A stretch of 33,790 nucleotides of DNA. It comes from Halomicronema sp. CCY15110 (GTDB lineage Bacteria; Cyanobacteriota; Cyanobacteriia; Phormidesmidales; Phormidesmidaceae). The notes beneath the pieces are model-generated. The model worked only from the letters and a program-made list of their open reading frames with translations. It searched no databases and was not told the DNA's origin. Shown in pieces: positions 8,556 to 25,601 of the stretch. The stretch spans positions 1-33,790 of the forward strand of contig NZ_JACSWC010000238.1 in assembly GCF_016888165.1 (NCBI RefSeq). Reading direction: 5' to 3'. How positions within the stretch are numbered: position 1 is the first letter of the stretch; each line of letters starts with the position of its first letter. A program made the translations under genes and the position numbers.

Positions 8556-10235
8556 CTAGCGAACGACGGCTTCTGCCGCTTCTGCGGCCTCGGACTTCCG
8601 CAGCGCTTGTTTCACATGAATCACATCATGCTCATAGCTCAGCCCCTTGTAGATGCTGTAGCACATGATCAGCAGCACCACCGCAAAGGGCAACCCCGCA
8701 CTGATGGCTGCCGTTTGCAAAGCTGACAGACCGCCGCCCAACAGCAGCGTCGAAGCCACTACCCCTTCGAGCACCGCCCAGAAGACCCGCTGCGGCACCG
8801 GCGACTCCAGCTTGCCGCCGGAGGCGATGCTGTCGACCACCAGAGAACCGGAGTCGGAGGAGGTGACGAAGAATACGACCACTAGAATAATGGCAACAAA
8901 GGAAGTAATGCCGGTTAAAGGGAGCTGATCCAGCATCACGAATAGGGCTGTGGCCACATTTTCAGACACGGCGGTGCTGATGATGCCGGCAGTGCCTTCG
9001 CTCAGCCCGAAACTCAAGGCCGTGCCGCCAAAGGCCGACATCCACAGAAAGGTCAGAGCAGTGGGCAGCAGCAGCACCCCAAGGATGAACTCACGCACGG
9101 TGCGGCCCTTGGAAATGCGGGCGATAAAAATGCCCACAAACGGAGCCCAGGATACCCACCAGCCCCAGTAGAAGACGGTCCAACCATTCTGCCAGCCGTT
9201 ATCGTTAAACGTCTCAGTCCAGAAGCTCATGGTGGGCAGAGACGCCAAGTAGTAACCAGTGGTTTGCACAAAGGTGTTGAACAGAAAGACCGTGGGCCCC
9301 ACCAGCAGCACAAACGTCAGCAGCACTGCCGCCAAAATCATGTTGAGTTCGCTCAGGCGGCGCACTCCGTTCCCCAGGCCTGATACGACCGAGGCGGTGG
9401 CAAAACCGGTAATGATCGCAATGAGGCCCACCTGCACGGGGGTGCTAATTTGCAGACCAAACAAAAAGTTCAAGCCCGCATTCGTCTGCTGCACGCCGAA
9501 GCCCAGAGAGGTCGCCAGGCCAAACAGGGTAGAGGCTACTGCCAACACGTCAATCGCATTACCCTGCCAGCCGTAAATCTTTTCTCCCAAGATGGGGTAA
9601 AACACTGAGCGAATGGTGAGGGGCAGACCCCAGTTAAAGGTAAAAAATGCCAGGGAAAGGCCGACCAAAGCATAGATGCCCCAGGCGTGGAGTCCCCAGT
9701 GGAAGAAGGTGACGCCCATTGCTTGCCGGGCGGCATCGGCGGTATTGGGCTCGATCGCCCCAACAATGACTGGCGGGTCTTGGAAATGGTAAATCGGCTC
9801 CGCGACGCTCCAGAACATCAGGCCGGTACCCATACCAGCGCTCATGAGCATGGAAATCCACGCAAAGGTGGGAAACTCTGGCCTGGCGTCGGGGCCGCCT
9901 AAGCGCACACTGCCCAATTTGGTTAAGGCAATGTAGACCGTAAACAGCAAAAAGAACGTCACGGACAGGATCATGAACCAGCCCAGCGTGCCCGAAATAA
10001 ACGCCTGAACCGCCCCAAAGGCTGACGTAGCAGGCTCCTGAAAGAGCAGCGTGAACAGAACAAACAGTAGAACCAGGCTACCTGAAACCAGGAAAACCTC
10101 AGGGTGAAAATCGAACCCTCTTTTGGTGAAGTTGCGATCGCCGGGACGGCGAGTTAGATGGCGCGTAGGGGCATGTTCGGGCATCACAAACGGATGCTCT
10201 TCATGCCTTCCATGCCCATTGTTTTCAATAGTCAT
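8556..10235 (-). CDS. BCCT family glycine betaine transporter
   Basis: 559 aa, with twelve membrane segments predicted by eye after a hydrophilic His-rich N-terminus (residues 1-42). The first-repeat glycine motif is SAGMGTGLMFWSVAEP (132-147). The family signature FYWGWWVSWAPFVGIFIAR (355-373) contains Trp359, Trp360 and Trp363, which correspond to the aromatic betaine-binding box of BetP. Expected role: sodium- or proton-coupled uptake of glycine betaine or related trimethylammonium compounds across the plasma membrane. The short C-terminus ends in AAEAAEAVVR and lacks the long regulatory tail of osmosensing BetP, which would fit a supply role more than osmotic gating. It is divergent from the Rieske oxygenase across an 839-bp spacer. 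The ATG at 10235 has a weak ribosome binding site; Met18 is an alternative. Confidence 0.93.
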   Translation of the reverse strand: MTIENNGHGRHEEHPFVMPEHAPTRHLTRRPGDRNFTKRGFDFHPEVFLVSGSLVLLFVLFTLLFQEPATSAFGAVQAFISGTLGWFMILSVTFFLLFTVYIALTKLGSVRLGGPDARPEFPTFAWISMLMSAGMGTGLMFWSVAEPIYHFQDPPVIVGAIEPNTADAARQAMGVTFFHWGLHAWGIYALVGLSLAFFTFNWGLPLTIRSVFYPILGEKIYGWQGNAIDVLAVASTLFGLATSLGFGVQQTNAGLNFLFGLQISTPVQVGLIAIITGFATASVVSGLGNGVRRLSELNMILAAVLLTFVLLVGPTVFLFNTFVQTTGYYLASLPTMSFWTETFNDNGWQNGWTVFYWGWWVSWAPFVGIFIARISKGRTVREFILGVLLLPTALTFLWMSAFGGTALSFGLSEGTAGIISTAVSENVATALFVMLDQLPLTGITSFVAIILVVVFFVTSSDSGSLVVDSIASGGKLESPVPQRVFWAVLEGVVASTLLLGGGLSALQTAAISAGLPFAVVLLIMCYSIYKGLSYEHDVIHVKQALRKSEAAEAAEAVVR

Positions 10236-22042: not shown

Positions 22043-22499
22043 ATCTCCCTTCCTGTGAGGTTCGTAAAGACACCACGCAATCCCTCGCTGCCAAACAACG
22101 GGGACGCCTCAATAAGCTGCCATGGGTTGAAGATGCAAATCTTGCTCCAAGGCAGGTGGCAGTGGGTAATTAGCACTCCAGCGGCCCAGCGGCGTAATCT
22201 GCCTCGGTCGGGCTCCAGTACTGGATTTCGGGAGTCCTGCAATTCCCTATGCTCTTTAGAATACTATCAGCGTTCCGATAAGCCTTATTTTGGAAGATCT
22301 GTATAGATTCATAAATAAATATTATGTGATGCCATCACACAATCTTGCGGGATGTCTCACGATGTAAATCCGGGCTGTGCTGCAGCGATCTCGGTCCTTC
22401 GCAAAGATTTTTCATTGCAGGAACGATAACGCCAGTGCCCTCTAACTCCGGCGTTTTTTCCACGATGTCTTAAGCCTGTTGTAGCGATCGGTTAAATCA
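22043..22499 (-). promoter_or_regulatory. rbc operon leader and promoter region
   Basis: This gene-free stretch of 457 bp precedes rbcL. A perfect dyad ATAAG-C-CTTAT lies at 22278-22288, and a possible minus-strand -10 TAGTAT at 22261-22266 (no good -35). The dyad's position just upstream would suit a LysR-type regulator of rbc genes, but I cannot assign a site. The AT-rich part is 22290-22340. No RNA gene is recognised. Confidence 0.4.
22045..22053 (-). promoter_or_regulatory. Ribosome binding site of rbcL
   Basis: GGAAGGGAG on the minus strand lies two bases before ATG, with the GGAAGG core at a normal distance of five bases. It fits a highly expressed gene. Confidence 0.75.
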
Positions 22500-22734
22500 C
22501 CGTAGGGTGCGTTGCCGAAGGTAAACGCACCGCATAGTTGAATCACCGTAGGGTGCGTTGCCGCAGTAAACGCACCATTTGGAGAATCCACCGTAGGGTG
22601 CGTTGCCGAAGGTAAACGCACCGCATACAGTTAAATCCCCGTAGGGTGCGTTGCCGAAGGTAAACGCACCGCATACAGTTGAATCCCCGTCGGGTGCGTT
22701 GCCGCAGGTAAACGCACCATTTGGAGAATCCACC
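22500..22734. repeat. Array of five REP-like palindromic units
   Basis: Units begin at 22500, 22546, 22591, 22639 and 22687 and are 45-48 bases long. Each has CCGTAGGGTGCGTTGCCG, then GTAAACGCACC, so GGTGCGTT/AACGCACC makes an 8-bp hairpin. GTAG sits at the hairpin foot (GTCG in unit 5). Two alternating tails occur: CGCATA(CA)GTT(G/A)AAT in units 1, 3 and 4, and ATTTGGAGAATCCA in units 2 and 5. This resembles a BIME-like cluster. Confidence 0.9.
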
Positions 22735-22758
22735 GCATGAAACCGATTTGCCCTCCAT

Positions 22759-23256
22759 TTACGGATAACGCCCCGCCGCCAACCACCGATGCACACTCGA
22801 AAACGGCCAATCCGTCGGCATCTCACATAATTGATGCCGCACCGGATTCTCATGAATATAGCGACAGTGATTCGCAAAATCCCGGTCATCGCGAATCACA
22901 TGCTCCCAAAACCGTCGTTGCCACAACGCCCGCTCTCGCCGCTTTCGACGCGATGCCGAAAGCTCAACCGTCGCCTCCAAATCCGCCCCGTAGTGTCTGG
23001 TGACATAGGTTTTGATCAGACGCAGACGCGTAGAGATATCGCTGTCGTCCGTTGGCAACGTCATCAAGCAATGAAAGTGGTCGGGCAGCAGCACAAACGC
23101 ATCAAGCTGAAATGGACGAGTTTGCCGCACTTGAGAAATGGCAGTGCGCAAAGCATGGCGGGCCACATCGCCACACAGCCAGGGATGCCGCTGGTAGGTG
23201 ACTTGCGTAATGAAGTAAGTGCCGCCAGCAATGTGAGGTCGGCGGTAATTGGGCAT
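22759..23256 (-). CDS. REP-associated tyrosine transposase (RAYT, Y1_Tnp)
   Basis: 165 aa, the size of a compact RAYT of the IS200/IS605-related HUH superfamily. It starts YRRPHIAGGTYFITQVTYQR, typical of the group. The HUH pair is His60-Phe-His62 in LLPDHFHCLM. FWEHVIRDDRDF and YIHENPVRH follow, with Tyr133 the likely catalytic tyrosine. RAYTs cut single-stranded REP hairpins carrying GTAG at the foot. Here GTAG-footed hairpins lie on both sides (22500-22734 and 23336-23364), which fits a self-contained REP/RAYT unit. All motifs are intact, so the enzyme may be active. Confidence 0.92.
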   Translation of the reverse strand: MPNYRRPHIAGGTYFITQVTYQRHPWLCGDVARHALRTAISQVRQTRPFQLDAFVLLPDHFHCLMTLPTDDSDISTRLRLIKTYVTRHYGADLEATVELSASRRKRRERALWQRRFWEHVIRDDRDFANHCRYIHENPVRHQLCEMPTDWPFSSVHRWLAAGRYP

Positions 23257-23335
23257 GGCTGCTGGGTCGTATCGTTACCCTTGAGAATGCCCGTTTATCG
23301 AAGGGTATGGAGCGCTGTGCAAATAATTGGAACGA

Positions 23336-23364
23336 GTGCGTTTGCTTTTGGCAACGCACCCTAC
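23336..23364. repeat. Inverted REP-like copy on the far side of the RAYT gene
   Basis: Read on the minus strand, it begins GTAGGGTGCGTTGCC, then AAAAGC and AAACGCAC. It is the same as the array units except in the loop. Distance from the RAYT start codon is 80 bases. Confidence 0.85.
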
Positions 23365-23507
23365 ACCCTGAAATTGCGGCCTTGCAATTTACCGATTCGA
23401 CGTGACTCAGGTGCCAGGTAACAGATCGCCGAAACACCCAGTTTTCCGTGTGGAGGGGGTCTGAAATAATTCTTTTGGATCGGACTGTAATGCTTATTTG
23501 CTACAGT

Positions 23508-24449
23508 TTACAAGTCTGGATGCGAGAGAAGATACACCACCCACCCCCCAACCCATCTACACCCCCACCCCCCCACCGGAAATTCTCCGGCGGGTGAAAA
23601 ATCAGGGTTGGCTTTTAGCTCGTCGTAGTCCAAGTATCGGGATGCAGTTTCATCTTGCCAGCCCACCTTAACGCAAAACTGATCCCAGTCTTTGCCGCTG
23701 CTGGTAGGGCTACCGCACTCGATCCAAATATCTTTTTGCACGCTAAAGCCAAACTTGCCGCCGCTGTGCAACTTCCACAGTGCGTCAATCGTTTTTAGGT
23801 CAGCACAGGGAAAGGTCTGCAACTCTTCAAGTCGAATCCAATCGTTTTCGGGTCGTCCGACTGCTTCTAGCATTCGATGCCAAGTTTCGAGGTCAGCCTC
23901 TCGCCATTTTTTCGCTTTTAGCAGCCGTTGCAGTTCTCGATAATCAACCCCCTTGTCCGACTTCAACTCAATTTCAGTCGTTTTGGCCGACATTTTAACT
24001 GATGGTCTGGGCACAGGCGAGATTTTTTCCTCGACTACCGTTTGCACCGGCAGCGACTCAGCCACTGTCGGCGGCGTCGAAAAATAGCCGCGCACCGTGT
24101 CAAAAAAGCGAGCGGGTGGCAGTTGGCCGCCGATCACATCCACCGACTGAATGGCCGCCACCGATAGCCAGCGTCGCCCTTCTAGCAATAAGGGAAAAAT
24201 CGGCTTTTTCAACTCTAAGGCCAGGCTCAGCTCACACTGCACCCAGTGAGAGTCTTCCGATCGCGGCGACATCACCACCAAAAACACCGAGCACTGCTCC
24301 AGATGATCTTGAATCACCCTCGGCCAGGTGGTGCCGTAGTCGATACTGTCATCAATCCACACGGGCAAGCGATGCGACTGTAGCGCCTGCACCAAGGTGC
24401 TGACGTAGGCCTGGTCTTGCCGACTGTAGCTAATAAAAATAAAACTCAT
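23508..24449 (-). CDS. TIR-GUN4 fusion protein
   Basis: 313 aa. Residues 1-135 are a TIR domain: FIFISYSRQDQAYVSTLVQAL, LPVWIDDSIDYGTTWPRVI, then SHWVQCELSLAL with Glu73 at the position of the catalytic glutamate in NAD-cleaving TIRs. A linker (about 136-165) leads to a GUN4 domain (169-290): VDYRELQRLLKAKKWREAD, FPCADLKTIDALW and GGKFGFSVQKDIW are diagnostic. Free-standing GUN4 binds porphyrins and activates Mg-chelatase; in cyanobacteria GUN4 modules are also fused to signalling domains. Possible role: tetrapyrrole-linked signalling or stress/defence, unproven. The last 20 residues (GGWGCRWVGGWVVYLLSHPDL region) come from a G-rich simple repeat and look accidental. It is 34 bp after the DUF2283 gene. 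Confidence 0.88.
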   Translation of the reverse strand: MSFIFISYSRQDQAYVSTLVQALQSHRLPVWIDDSIDYGTTWPRVIQDHLEQCSVFLVVMSPRSEDSHWVQCELSLALELKKPIFPLLLEGRRWLSVAAIQSVDVIGGQLPPARFFDTVRGYFSTPPTVAESLPVQTVVEEKISPVPRPSVKMSAKTTEIELKSDKGVDYRELQRLLKAKKWREADLETWHRMLEAVGRPENDWIRLEELQTFPCADLKTIDALWKLHSGGKFGFSVQKDIWIECGSPTSSGKDWDQFCVKVGWQDETASRYLDYDELKANPDFSPAGEFPVGGWGCRWVGGWVVYLLSHPDL

Positions 24450-24483
24450 GCTGTCGTCAAGCTACCTGGTACCGCTTGCAGTC

Positions 24484-24702
24484 TCATGCGATGTTTTCAG
24501 CCATGAGTTGGGCATAAAGCGGTTTGTCTTTGGCCAATTGGCTCACGTTTAGAACCGAAAAGCCGAGGATGTTGCCCTGCGGATCGACGCGCTCCATGAT
24601 GGCGTCATTATCCGTCTCGCGCATAAATCCGGCGGCATCAGAAAACAGGACTTCCAAGAAGTCCGCTTCTGCATCAAACCAAATTTTTACGGATTGGGCC
24701 AT
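24484..24702 (-). CDS. DUF2283 domain small protein, possible antitoxin
   Basis: 72 aa. It opens with VKIWFDAEADFLEVLFSDA and contains VDPQGNILGFSVLNVSQL, typical of DUF2283 (short beta-hairpin repeats with W/YD-x-x-ADxLYI). It overlaps the preceding 103-aa gene by 16 bases, indicating translational coupling. GGGAG lies eight bases before the ATG. DUF2283 proteins are commonly found next to small DUF4258-like proteins in toxin-antitoxin-like pairs; the antitoxin role is inferred from that pattern. Confidence 0.8.
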   Translation of the reverse strand: MAQSVKIWFDAEADFLEVLFSDAAGFMRETDNDAIMERVDPQGNILGFSVLNVSQLAKDKPLYAQLMAENIA

Positions 24703-24998
24703 ATTTGTGCTCCCGGTTTGAGTTTGTCAGTGAGGTAAGCGGTGATGACAAAGGCATCTGCTTCCAGATATTTCACCACGACACAGAGCCACTTGTCGCC
24801 CACCAAAGTCGCGCGTTGATAAAGATAGTAAAGGGAGACCGTCTGGTCAGTACGAGATTGCCTCACCACTGCTGGATGCAGCAGCACGGCTGGAATCGCT
24901 GCTTCCATGTTAACCATTTCGGGATGCTGGAGAATATGCGTCAACCGTTCATCAGTTAGCCGAATCTGGCGACCTTGATAATCAACAAACCGTTGCAT
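24687..24998 (-). CDS. Small DUF4258/RelE-like protein, possible toxin
   Basis: 103 aa basic/neutral protein. Features: DERLTHILQHPEM near the N-terminus, a mid-protein pair of strands (QTVSLYYLYQRATLVGDKWLCVVVKYL) and DAFVITAYLTDKLKPG. This layout (helix with His, then strands ending in a VxTAYxTD-like motif) is seen in small nuclease-like families of RelE/BECR type paired with DUF2283. His21 could be catalytic. The family assignment is by eye, not by search. First of the overlapping pair; 105 bp after the 165-aa gene. Confidence 0.7.
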   Translation of the reverse strand: MQRFVDYQGRQIRLTDERLTHILQHPEMVNMEAAIPAVLLHPAVVRQSRTDQTVSLYYLYQRATLVGDKWLCVVVKYLEADAFVITAYLTDKLKPGAQIWPNP

Positions 24999-25103: not shown

Positions 25104-25601
25104 TTACTCTTGCACGCCGGAGATGACCGCCAGGGCATGGGCGTAGGTGGCGAGTTCTTGCCGCAGCTTTTCTAGCTCTGCTCGGATGGCGGGTTCCTCA
25201 GCCCAGGCTTTTTCGTGTTCCTGCGGACTCAGTCCCCCGGTATTTTGCGCTTCCCAGGCTTGCAGGCGGGGGTGCCATGCCGACATAAACGGACGCAACC
25301 CCTGGTTGAGCACCGCGATCGCAATGCCCCCCACCGATTCCCGCGAGGCTCCGACCTGCGGGCCAGCCTGGCGTAAGATGTCGCGGGTGGTGCCAAACAA
25401 CGTGTAAAGCGAACTCAAGGCTTCGCGCACGGTGCCCTGTTCACTATCCAAAGACTGCACGGCGATGCGGGTGACCAACTCGATGTAGAGTTCCCAGGCG
25501 GCATTTTGCTCTGTGGGGTCGGCTTCCCAGGTGGCTCCCCCCATGCCAAAGGGCAAGTTCACCGACACGGATTTTAAGATGGCGGGCGGATCTTTAGGCA
25601 T
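25104..25601 (-). CDS. Helical hypothetical protein (165 aa)
   Basis: I do not recognise a named family. The N-terminal segment VSVNLPFGMGGATWEADPTE is followed by long helices (AAWELYIELVTRIAVQ, EALSSLYTLFGTTRDILRQ, VAVL-type helix near 95-105, then EEPAIRAELEKLRQELATYAHAL). No signal peptide or membrane segment. The mix of a short glycine-rich strand and a helical bundle with many Trp/Glu residues suggests a regulatory or structural protein. It leads the minus-strand set with the toxin-like pair and the TIR-GUN4 gene, so a joint role in an accessory system is possible. Start ATG at 25601; weak ribosome binding site. Confidence 0.75.
   Translation of the reverse strand: MPKDPPAILKSVSVNLPFGMGGATWEADPTEQNAAWELYIELVTRIAVQSLDSEQGTVREALSSLYTLFGTTRDILRQAGPQVGASRESVGGIAIAVLNQGLRPFMSAWHPRLQAWEAQNTGGLSPQEHEKAWAEEPAIRAELEKLRQELATYAHALAVISGVQE

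Follow-up and report, generated by a model that had tools for sequence, protein, structure and literature searches.

Hypervariable tails and a conserved 3' DNA element in GUN4 fusion genes of cyanobacteria

GUN4 fusions and described systems of receptor rewriting

Programmed rewriting of receptor ends is carried out by diversity-generating retroelements (DGRs) in bacteria and takes place in the antigen-receptor genes of animals. In a DGR, a variable region (VR) plus an initiation of mutagenic homing (IMH) sequence lie near the 3' end of the gene. Here we analyse a 33,790-nt stretch of the cyanobacterium Halomicronema sp. CCY15110 (contig NZ_JACSWC010000238.1; hereafter the window), in which a gene joining a TIR domain to a GUN4 domain ends in a hypervariable G/T-rich tract and a conserved DNA element. 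GUN4 joined to kinases, caspases, trypsin and TIR domains has been reported in cyanobacteria and proposed to serve as an allosteric sensor that depends on tetrapyrroles (Kaur et al., 2020; PMC7159879). Since that work states both the TIR-GUN4 architecture and the tetrapyrrole-sensor idea, neither the fusion nor its first explanation is new. The GUN4 fusions described here resemble those GUN4-fused conflict effectors in the partners of GUN4 (kinase, caspase, trypsin, TIR) and in the sensor proposal, and differ in the variable tail and the 3' element, neither of which is mentioned in the accessible part of that article, where the word "transposase" is also absent. The 3' end, that is, the variable tract together with the conserved DNA element, is the new part. 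No such tail system was found in the open literature searched, a scope that leaves aside subscription papers and preprints, and the proteins with GUN4 tails could represent a type of variable sensor without earlier description.

Junctional diversity in the V(D)J recombination of vertebrates is similar in its wholesale, untemplated-looking filler, its varying frame and its fixed border signal, whereas here no second gene segment is joined and the candidate enzyme is a bacterial HUH protein and not RAG. Cyanobacterial DGRs, so far as described in the accessible text of PMC7517822, share with the GUN4 tails a rewritten stretch near the 3' end, a modular domain carried by many signalling proteins and a conserved border sequence; they employ a reverse transcriptase (RT), a template repeat, A-to-N changes and a C-type lectin fold, while the GUN4 tails have a free length, a GUN4 fold, no RT in the genome and no template found. 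A third likeness is to the REP-associated tyrosine transposases (RAYT, or TnpA-REP; REP, repetitive extragenic palindromic sequence): the HUH, Trp and Tyr motifs are those of subclass 2.1 (PMC6006769, accessible text), from which the GUN4-linked RAYT described below differs by its fixed convergent place and by an element that stands at GUN4 ends as opposed to scattered REPs.

The window gene and its 3' end comprise the following features.

23508 to 24449, minus strand: TIR-GUN4 fusion gene, 313 amino acids, TAA stop included
24132 to 24440, minus strand: TIR domain, residues 4-106 (Pfam TIR_2, E 4.6e-23; SARM1 TIR by sequence and fold)
24231 to 24233, minus strand: codon of Glu73, at the presumed NADase position, aligned with SARM1 WVHKE
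23562 to 23960, minus strand: GUN4 domain, residues 164-296 (Pfam, E 9.4e-36; Foldseek 1z3y, E 3.2e-9)
23577 to 23588, minus strand: 5' boundary box GGAGAATTTCCG, which codes GEFP and has a codon bias at the DNA level
23532 to 23576, minus strand: hypervariable G/T-rich tract of 45 nt (G 30, T 12, A 3), which takes the position of the LxNxLR loop
23499 to 23531, minus strand: conserved 3' DNA element CTTCTCTCGCATCCAGACTTGTAAACTGTAGCA, which includes the TIR-GUN4 stop codon
23484 to 23507, minus strand: imperfect inverted repeat ACTGTA...TACAGT after the element, a putative structure
23410 to 23435, minus strand: second conserved box GTTTCGGCGATCTGTTACCTGGCACC, which recurs at 40-170 nt from the element

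The open reading frame (ORF) lies on the minus strand, frame 1 of the plus strand at 23508-24449 containing many stops. A first-pass annotation of this DNA had read there a TIR domain fused to GUN4 in a single ORF, with Glu73 at the NADase position; it named no strand, and neither the C-terminal tract nor the element formed part of it. The fusion is confirmed by Pfam (TIR_2 and GUN4; 123.5 bits against a cut-off of 29.2 for GUN4, PF05419) and by Foldseek, in which an AlphaFold2 model (67 sequences; mean pLDDT 77, pTM 0.58) finds GUN4 structures on top (1z3y) and SARM1 second. The reading of Glu73 is borne out by a weak HMMER alignment (E 0.006) with the Glu of SARM1 WVHKE, which we take to be the catalytic E642; the window protein has both a TIR fold and a Glu at the catalytic position, as a TIR NADase would. 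It does not score as a Thoeris TIR (NCBIfam ThcB4 model, 29.7 bits against a cut-off of 220), the PADLOC ThsB models match its TIR part only (best E 9.1e-9), and no phage relative was matched at 1e-5. Two further observations concern the protein itself. The PADLOC model PD-T4-6 covers its GUN4 part (profile positions 293-425 of 450, E 9.6e-36), so that the labelling of GUN4 proteins as PD-T4-6 may rest on the GUN4 part alone. On Streptomyces clavuligerus plasmids, a TIR-domain protein aligns to residues 4-270 (TIR and most of GUN4) with 27% identity, which is perhaps a GUN4-like domain outside cyanobacteria.

The GUN4 domain is not that of a Mg-chelatase orthologue, for which GUN4_N together with LxNxLR was sought: GUN4_N was not found in the window protein at E<=0.01, and the protein reads GEFPVGGWGC... 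where the orthologue of the same genome (L001) has GHLPLTNQLR. In this regard, bilin binding has been reported to depend on the LxNxLR motif, whose Asn is missing from a clade of GUN4 paralogues, and the N219G variant of Chlamydomonas GUN4 lost bilin and retained porphyrin (PMC10156173, accessible text). Since the motif is absent from the window protein while the orthologue carries LTNQLR, the gating of the TIR domain by bilin that had been suggested at first is doubtful; the porphyrin part of that suggestion may still apply, given that the variant kept porphyrin.

The hypervariable tract and the conserved element

The genomes compared here are one per species. Across 59 sites, the tract measures 29-157 nt (7 of 66 GUN4 sites, with no recognisable 5' anchor, were left out of this set) and has a composition of A 16, C 11, G 42 and T 31%, the corresponding values in the GUN4 coding part being A 30, C 19, G 28 and T 23%. 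Gly (18.8%), Val (11.5%) and Trp (8.1%) abound in the tail peptide, which occupies the position of the bilin motif, in the last stretch of the GUN4 domain, ordinarily a binding place for precursors of chlorophyll. Because 57 of 59 tracts are open, against 29.6 expected after shuffling, the product seems to be selected for read-through.

Between related genes the tract mostly differs. The comparison drew on the 172 genes whose GUN4 stretch reaches 240 nt or more, tract likeness being scored over the last 30 nt. In all, 471 gene pairs have GUN4 DNA at least 80% identical, and just two of these have alike tracts, both identical (GUN4 98.4 and 96.4%); at 92% GUN4 identity or more, alike tracts occur in 2 of 35 pairs. 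The medians of tract similarity in classes from 80 to 98% GUN4 identity (0.53-0.60) compare with 0.55 (s.d. 0.09) in random pairs, while the similarity of the element in the same pairs stays at 0.93-0.97. Tract change between related genes is mostly wholesale, and the border of the tract is fixed at the 3' side, by the element, and less fixed at the 5' side. When 195 sites were compared without requiring an intact GUN4, 12 pairs exceeded 0.8 in the last 30 nt. These include the two pairs already counted (L105/L107 and L292/L301), a third in which one frame is broken (L298/L306; the frame of L306), two pairs without GUN4 (L279/L313 and L304/L309) and L312/L317 at 0.90, with no upstream match; the other six score 0.83, five lack an upstream match, and their likeness seems to be of the kind that G/T-rich DNA yields by chance. 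The tracts of L290 and L303 have their first 13 nt in common and then diverge, which suggests that replacement proceeds from the side of the element. Flanking-box copies turn up within tracts more often than shuffling predicts (7 observed, 1.1 expected, and 7 observed, 0.6 expected, of 148), and their reverse complements (7 observed, 3.1 expected, and 9 observed, 8.6 expected) are within the shuffles.

These comparisons bear on the view of Kaur et al. (2020), in which GUN4 would sense the porphyrin level and switch the TIR domain. Tetrapyrrole-bound GUN4 structures are among the top fold matches of the window protein, the proposal is published (PMC7159879, accessible text), and loss of the bilin Asn in a GUN4 variant did not abolish porphyrin binding (PMC10156173, accessible text). 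On the other hand, it is precisely the ligand-side loop, from which LxNxLR is absent, that sets nearly all close gene pairs apart, and a variable lid is needless for a fixed ligand. We regard a tetrapyrrole-gated TIR as rather doubtful.

The element that follows the tract is one DNA with three translations at GUN4 ends, SSLASRLVNC, LLSHPDL or FSRIQTCKL, depending on the frame. Since selection at the protein level cannot hold one DNA in three frames, the element must be constrained as DNA or RNA, or be re-copied. With up to 2 mismatches it occurs in 31 of 63 genomes of the family and in 104 of the 388 class genomes, spread over 53 of 159 genera, the pattern read backwards as a control being found in 0 of 388 class genomes. 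An exact scan of 84,980 bacterial and archaeal species, each represented by a single genome, returned at least 114 stretches, and all 80 of the 80 titles listed are cyanobacterial; the laboratory strains Fischerella sp. PCC 9431, Crocosphaera watsonii WH 8501 and Scytonema sp. NIES-4073 are among the carriers. GUN4 stands directly upstream at 66 of 67 sites of a first set and, among the matches listed from the all-prokaryote scan, in which GUN4 was not a selection criterion, at 107 of 110 assessable sites; the two site sets overlap in part. The three frames are used at 18, 23 and 23 sites of the first set (2 more have a stop) and at 23, 30 and 51 of the all-prokaryote matches listed (3 more have a stop). 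Out of 195 pooled sites, 181 have a GUN4 match and 14 have none within 700 nt; several of the latter represent solo tails or deletions, chance may account for some, and in L317 a kinase gene is joined straight to tail and element, GUN4 being gone. In the window's own genome the element is found just twice.

Conservation of the alignment columns starts abruptly about five bases before the element, the earlier columns showing little beyond the G/T bias. On its 5' side the tract is preceded by a GGAGAATTTCC box, read as GEFP or GHLP at the protein level; GGA encodes its glycine in 37 of 59 genes and a control glycine in 2 of 55, so that the 5' boundary box, too, seems to be held as DNA. Downstream, TTACCTGGCACC (up to 2 mismatches) occurs 40-170 nt from the element at 71 of 151 sites, with 0 matches in a control stretch at 200-330 nt. 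A conserved hairpin behind the element is not claimed, as covariation goes beyond shuffles at 1 of 9 pairs of the inverted repeat and the columns that form the best ungapped stem hardly vary. No Rfam family matches within 23200-24600.

A neutral origin, by slippage and drift in a low-complexity G/T-rich tail whose element would be a transcription or RNA end signal, agrees with the composition of the tracts, some of which have short runs, with the inverted repeat after the element and with the point changes that separate the L298 and L306 tails. It accords poorly with the pair count, in which alike tails are identical and the remainder are at the random level, with the 57 open frames in 59 and with the lack of an Rfam match, and it leaves unexplained the convergent RAYT association described below, for which reasons we consider it quite unlikely.

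The proteins that end in this way carry effector-type partners. The scan covered 112 element-bearing GUN4 proteins (115 complete proteins less the three shortest; 31 incomplete ORFs were outside it) and, the domains not being mutually exclusive, found Pkinase in 36, TIR_2 in 28, Peptidase_C14 in 14, NACHT in 8 and CHAT in 1. Two patterns recovered the Glu motif in 17 of 23 TIR-like proteins picked by motif; a looser W..E was present in 3, and none in 3. The idea of a defence switch, also part of the first-pass annotation, gains from these kinase, TIR, caspase and NACHT partners and loses from the few defence neighbours at the window locus.

A RAYT-like transposase and the origin of the tails

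In the window's own genome, a 255-aa Y1 HUH protein is encoded convergently behind the caspase-GUN4 gene. Its RAYT subfamily is present in 66 of 388 class genomes (E<=1e-60), and MSNHxHYL, HFWE and RYIHxN, the HUH, Trp and Tyr motifs, are found in 40 of 40 proteins longer than 230 aa. The subfamily falls under the NCBIfam REP_Tyr_transpos cut-off (70.8 bits, E 1.1e-19; cut-off 80), and RAYT subclass 2.1 has the same motifs (NHVH, WE, YIHLNP) with no REP given in the accessible text (PMC6006769). Leaving out picocyanobacterial matches (47-52% identity), there are 69 copies, 5 of them at contig edges; of the 64 assessable, 57 have the element or GUN4 convergent on their 3' side (33 and 24). Seven have no GUN4, including one with just 570 nt of room (L153), which was counted against the association. 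The RAYT-element distance is 81-320 nt in 32 of 33 measured cases, the exception (G085) being a broken RAYT 824 nt away. By a hand count, the element occurs in 46 of 58 genomes with this RAYT and in 58 of 330 others (Fisher p 6e-20, kinship ignored). RAYT genes 92.5 and 93.5% identical stand beside unrelated tracts, and no conservation beyond the RAYT was seen among the alignment columns listed. In one cluster (L136, 942-8821), five GUN4 domains are arrayed within 8 kb, adjoining one RAYT.

These findings point toward the idea that cyanobacterial conflict effectors of TIR, kinase, caspase and NACHT type carry a junctionally diversified C-terminal GUN4 as a variable recognition module, with the RAYT as the leading, unproven catalyst; we hold this to be probably correct, by a modest measure. 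More tentative, and possible at best, is the fuller proposal that the diversification is DNA-based, in which a domesticated HUH transposase would cut at a signal sequence behind GUN4 genes, the gene end would be trimmed and refilled with G/T-rich DNA in any frame, and the repertoire of GUN4 tails would act as receptors made in anticipation, by which TIR, caspase or kinase effectors are set off.

HUH enzymes stay covalently on the 5' end of the strand they cut and leave a free 3'-OH. This chemistry agrees with an element side that stays fixed and a gene side that varies. The process would begin at the element's 5' border with a site-specific break, by which the element would be protected and the gene side exposed to trimming and refilling; trimming and G/T-rich re-synthesis on the GUN4 side, followed by re-joining, would complete it. 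The candidate catalyst, a RAYT-like HUH transposase convergent behind part of the GUN4 genes, would have to act in trans at the window gene. A cut at the element border would account for the constancy of the element, the variability of the gene side, the free length, the mixed frame, the solo tails and the bits of flanking box in the tracts. The new Gly/Val/Trp-rich tail, at the position of the bilin motif, would alter what the GUN4 domain binds, and such binding might then switch the TIR NADase.

Several observations weigh against this reading. From the side of the element, the RAYT adjoins 16 of 64 sites (a 17th adjacent transposase, that of the window, belongs to another subfamily) and 16 of 101 all-prokaryote sites among the matches listed, the window gene itself having no adjoining RAYT of the GUN4-linked subfamily. 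The subfamily is not found at E<=1e-60 in 58 of 104 element genomes, including G001, whose tail differs from that of the window. In genus g91, whose gene pairs are the closest, 3 of the 4 RAYT copies inspected have no GUN4 on the 3' side (L147, L148 and L151; L150 has one), and the most similar RAYT pair (94.8%) stands without recognisable element. Some tails are retained, two close pairs being identical, and L298 and L306 have a tail in common, with point changes, though their GUN4 DNA is only about 81% identical. The hairpin behind the element is almost without covariation, and no within-clone variation was observed in genomes sampled one per species. In addition, the difference between the window's own genome and G001 spans the whole GUN4 domain, from which it follows that recombination also acts.

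This last case speaks for an exchange of cassettes, in which tails would recombine between GUN4 genes at common boxes and the RAYT would be a hitchhiker. In the syntenic TIR-GUN4 gene of G001, which has a TAG between TIR and GUN4, the flank (its first 60 nt apart) is 80-93% and the TIR part 85-96% identical to the window, the linker and GUN4 only 43-68% and the 3' stretch with the element 76-95%; the GUN4 domain was thus replaced while the 3' DNA past the stop codon is common. The tail common to L298 and L306, whose GUN4 differs, and that common to L312 and L317, without upstream match, agree with exchange as well. Nevertheless, tails are nearly all unique (2 of 471 close pairs alike), and the window tract is single-copy: a 47-nt pattern (the tract and one base on each side) occurs once in its genome at up to 3 mismatches, a limit that a more diverged template would escape. 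No silent donor copy was found in the genome at that threshold. Exchange, moreover, moves variants and does not create them. As the origin of the tails, we judge it unlikely.

Writing of the tracts by a DGR would account for their place, since the variable stretch lies where the gene ends and is bordered by a conserved element, an arrangement that resembles VR plus IMH. DGRs act on effectors in cyanobacteria (PMC7517822, accessible text), and some RVT_1 match is present in 41 of 63 genomes of the family. Yet RVT_1 has 0 matches in the window's own genome and none in G001, the same search being positive in 3 of 14 control genomes; no RT-like ORF was found by motif search at the 14 loci with a GUN4-less site; and the genome holds no second copy of the tract at the threshold given above. 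On the absence of an RT, of a template repeat and of fixed-length, adenine-directed substitution (tracts of 29-157 nt, varying freely and mostly unrelated), we reject this explanation as very improbable.

Neighbourhood of the window gene and significance

The surroundings of the TIR-GUN4 gene contain rbc genes and a transposase, named from their translations. Three features are of note.

22759 to 23256, minus strand: REP-associated tyrosine transposase of a subfamily other than the GUN4-linked one (NCBIfam REP_Tyr_transpos, 184.7 bits, cut-off 80; Pfam Y1_Tnp)
24687 to 24998, minus strand: 103-aa protein of an unknown family, with synteny retained in genome G001
25104 to 25601, minus strand: 165-aa protein with no Pfam or NCBIfam match; relatives, recognised by eye, lie beside TIR/GUN4 genes in L050, L055 and L057

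A repeated stretch at 22497-22889 (FTFGNAPYG units when translated) lies beside the transposase and could be its REP family. The defence-gene neighbours expected from the first reading did not appear: ten TIR-GUN4 neighbourhoods surveyed by eye, with no defence library run, had no consistent neighbour except other TIR genes and the 165-aa protein. The latter family (window 25104-25601; L050 6939-7436; L055 9934-10431; L057 7544-8041) may be part of the same conflict system as the TIR/GUN4 genes. In two genomes (L012 4776-6688, L047 59-2004), the TIR-GUN4 gene overlaps the last part of another TIR gene that is not fused, an arrangement that suggests a TIR pair, and L057 encodes a TIR-GUN4-GUN4 protein (8562-10025).

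The genome of the window has eight GUN4 genes (nine matches, two of them in one gene): the orthologue, a caspase-GUN4, two TIR-GUN4, a lone GUN4, a GUN4 with an unknown N-terminal part, an L7/L12-GUN4 and a NACHT-GUN4-FGE. In the last of these (L008, contig C239), GUN4 is in the middle of the protein and FGE, a C-type lectin and usual DGR target, at its end, in a genome without an RVT_1 match. Elsewhere, eight partial RT matches in a row (G064:C2:3253337-3256062; about 350 bp spacing, mostly equal score) form a tandem array of RT fragments.

If junctional diversification of GUN4 ends is true, it would be a third kind of receptor-end rewriting, free of RT, variable in length, independent of frame and acting on cell-death effectors, and the RAYT transposases would gain a target. 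It could also explain the abundance of cyanobacterial GUN4 paralogues without the bilin motif.
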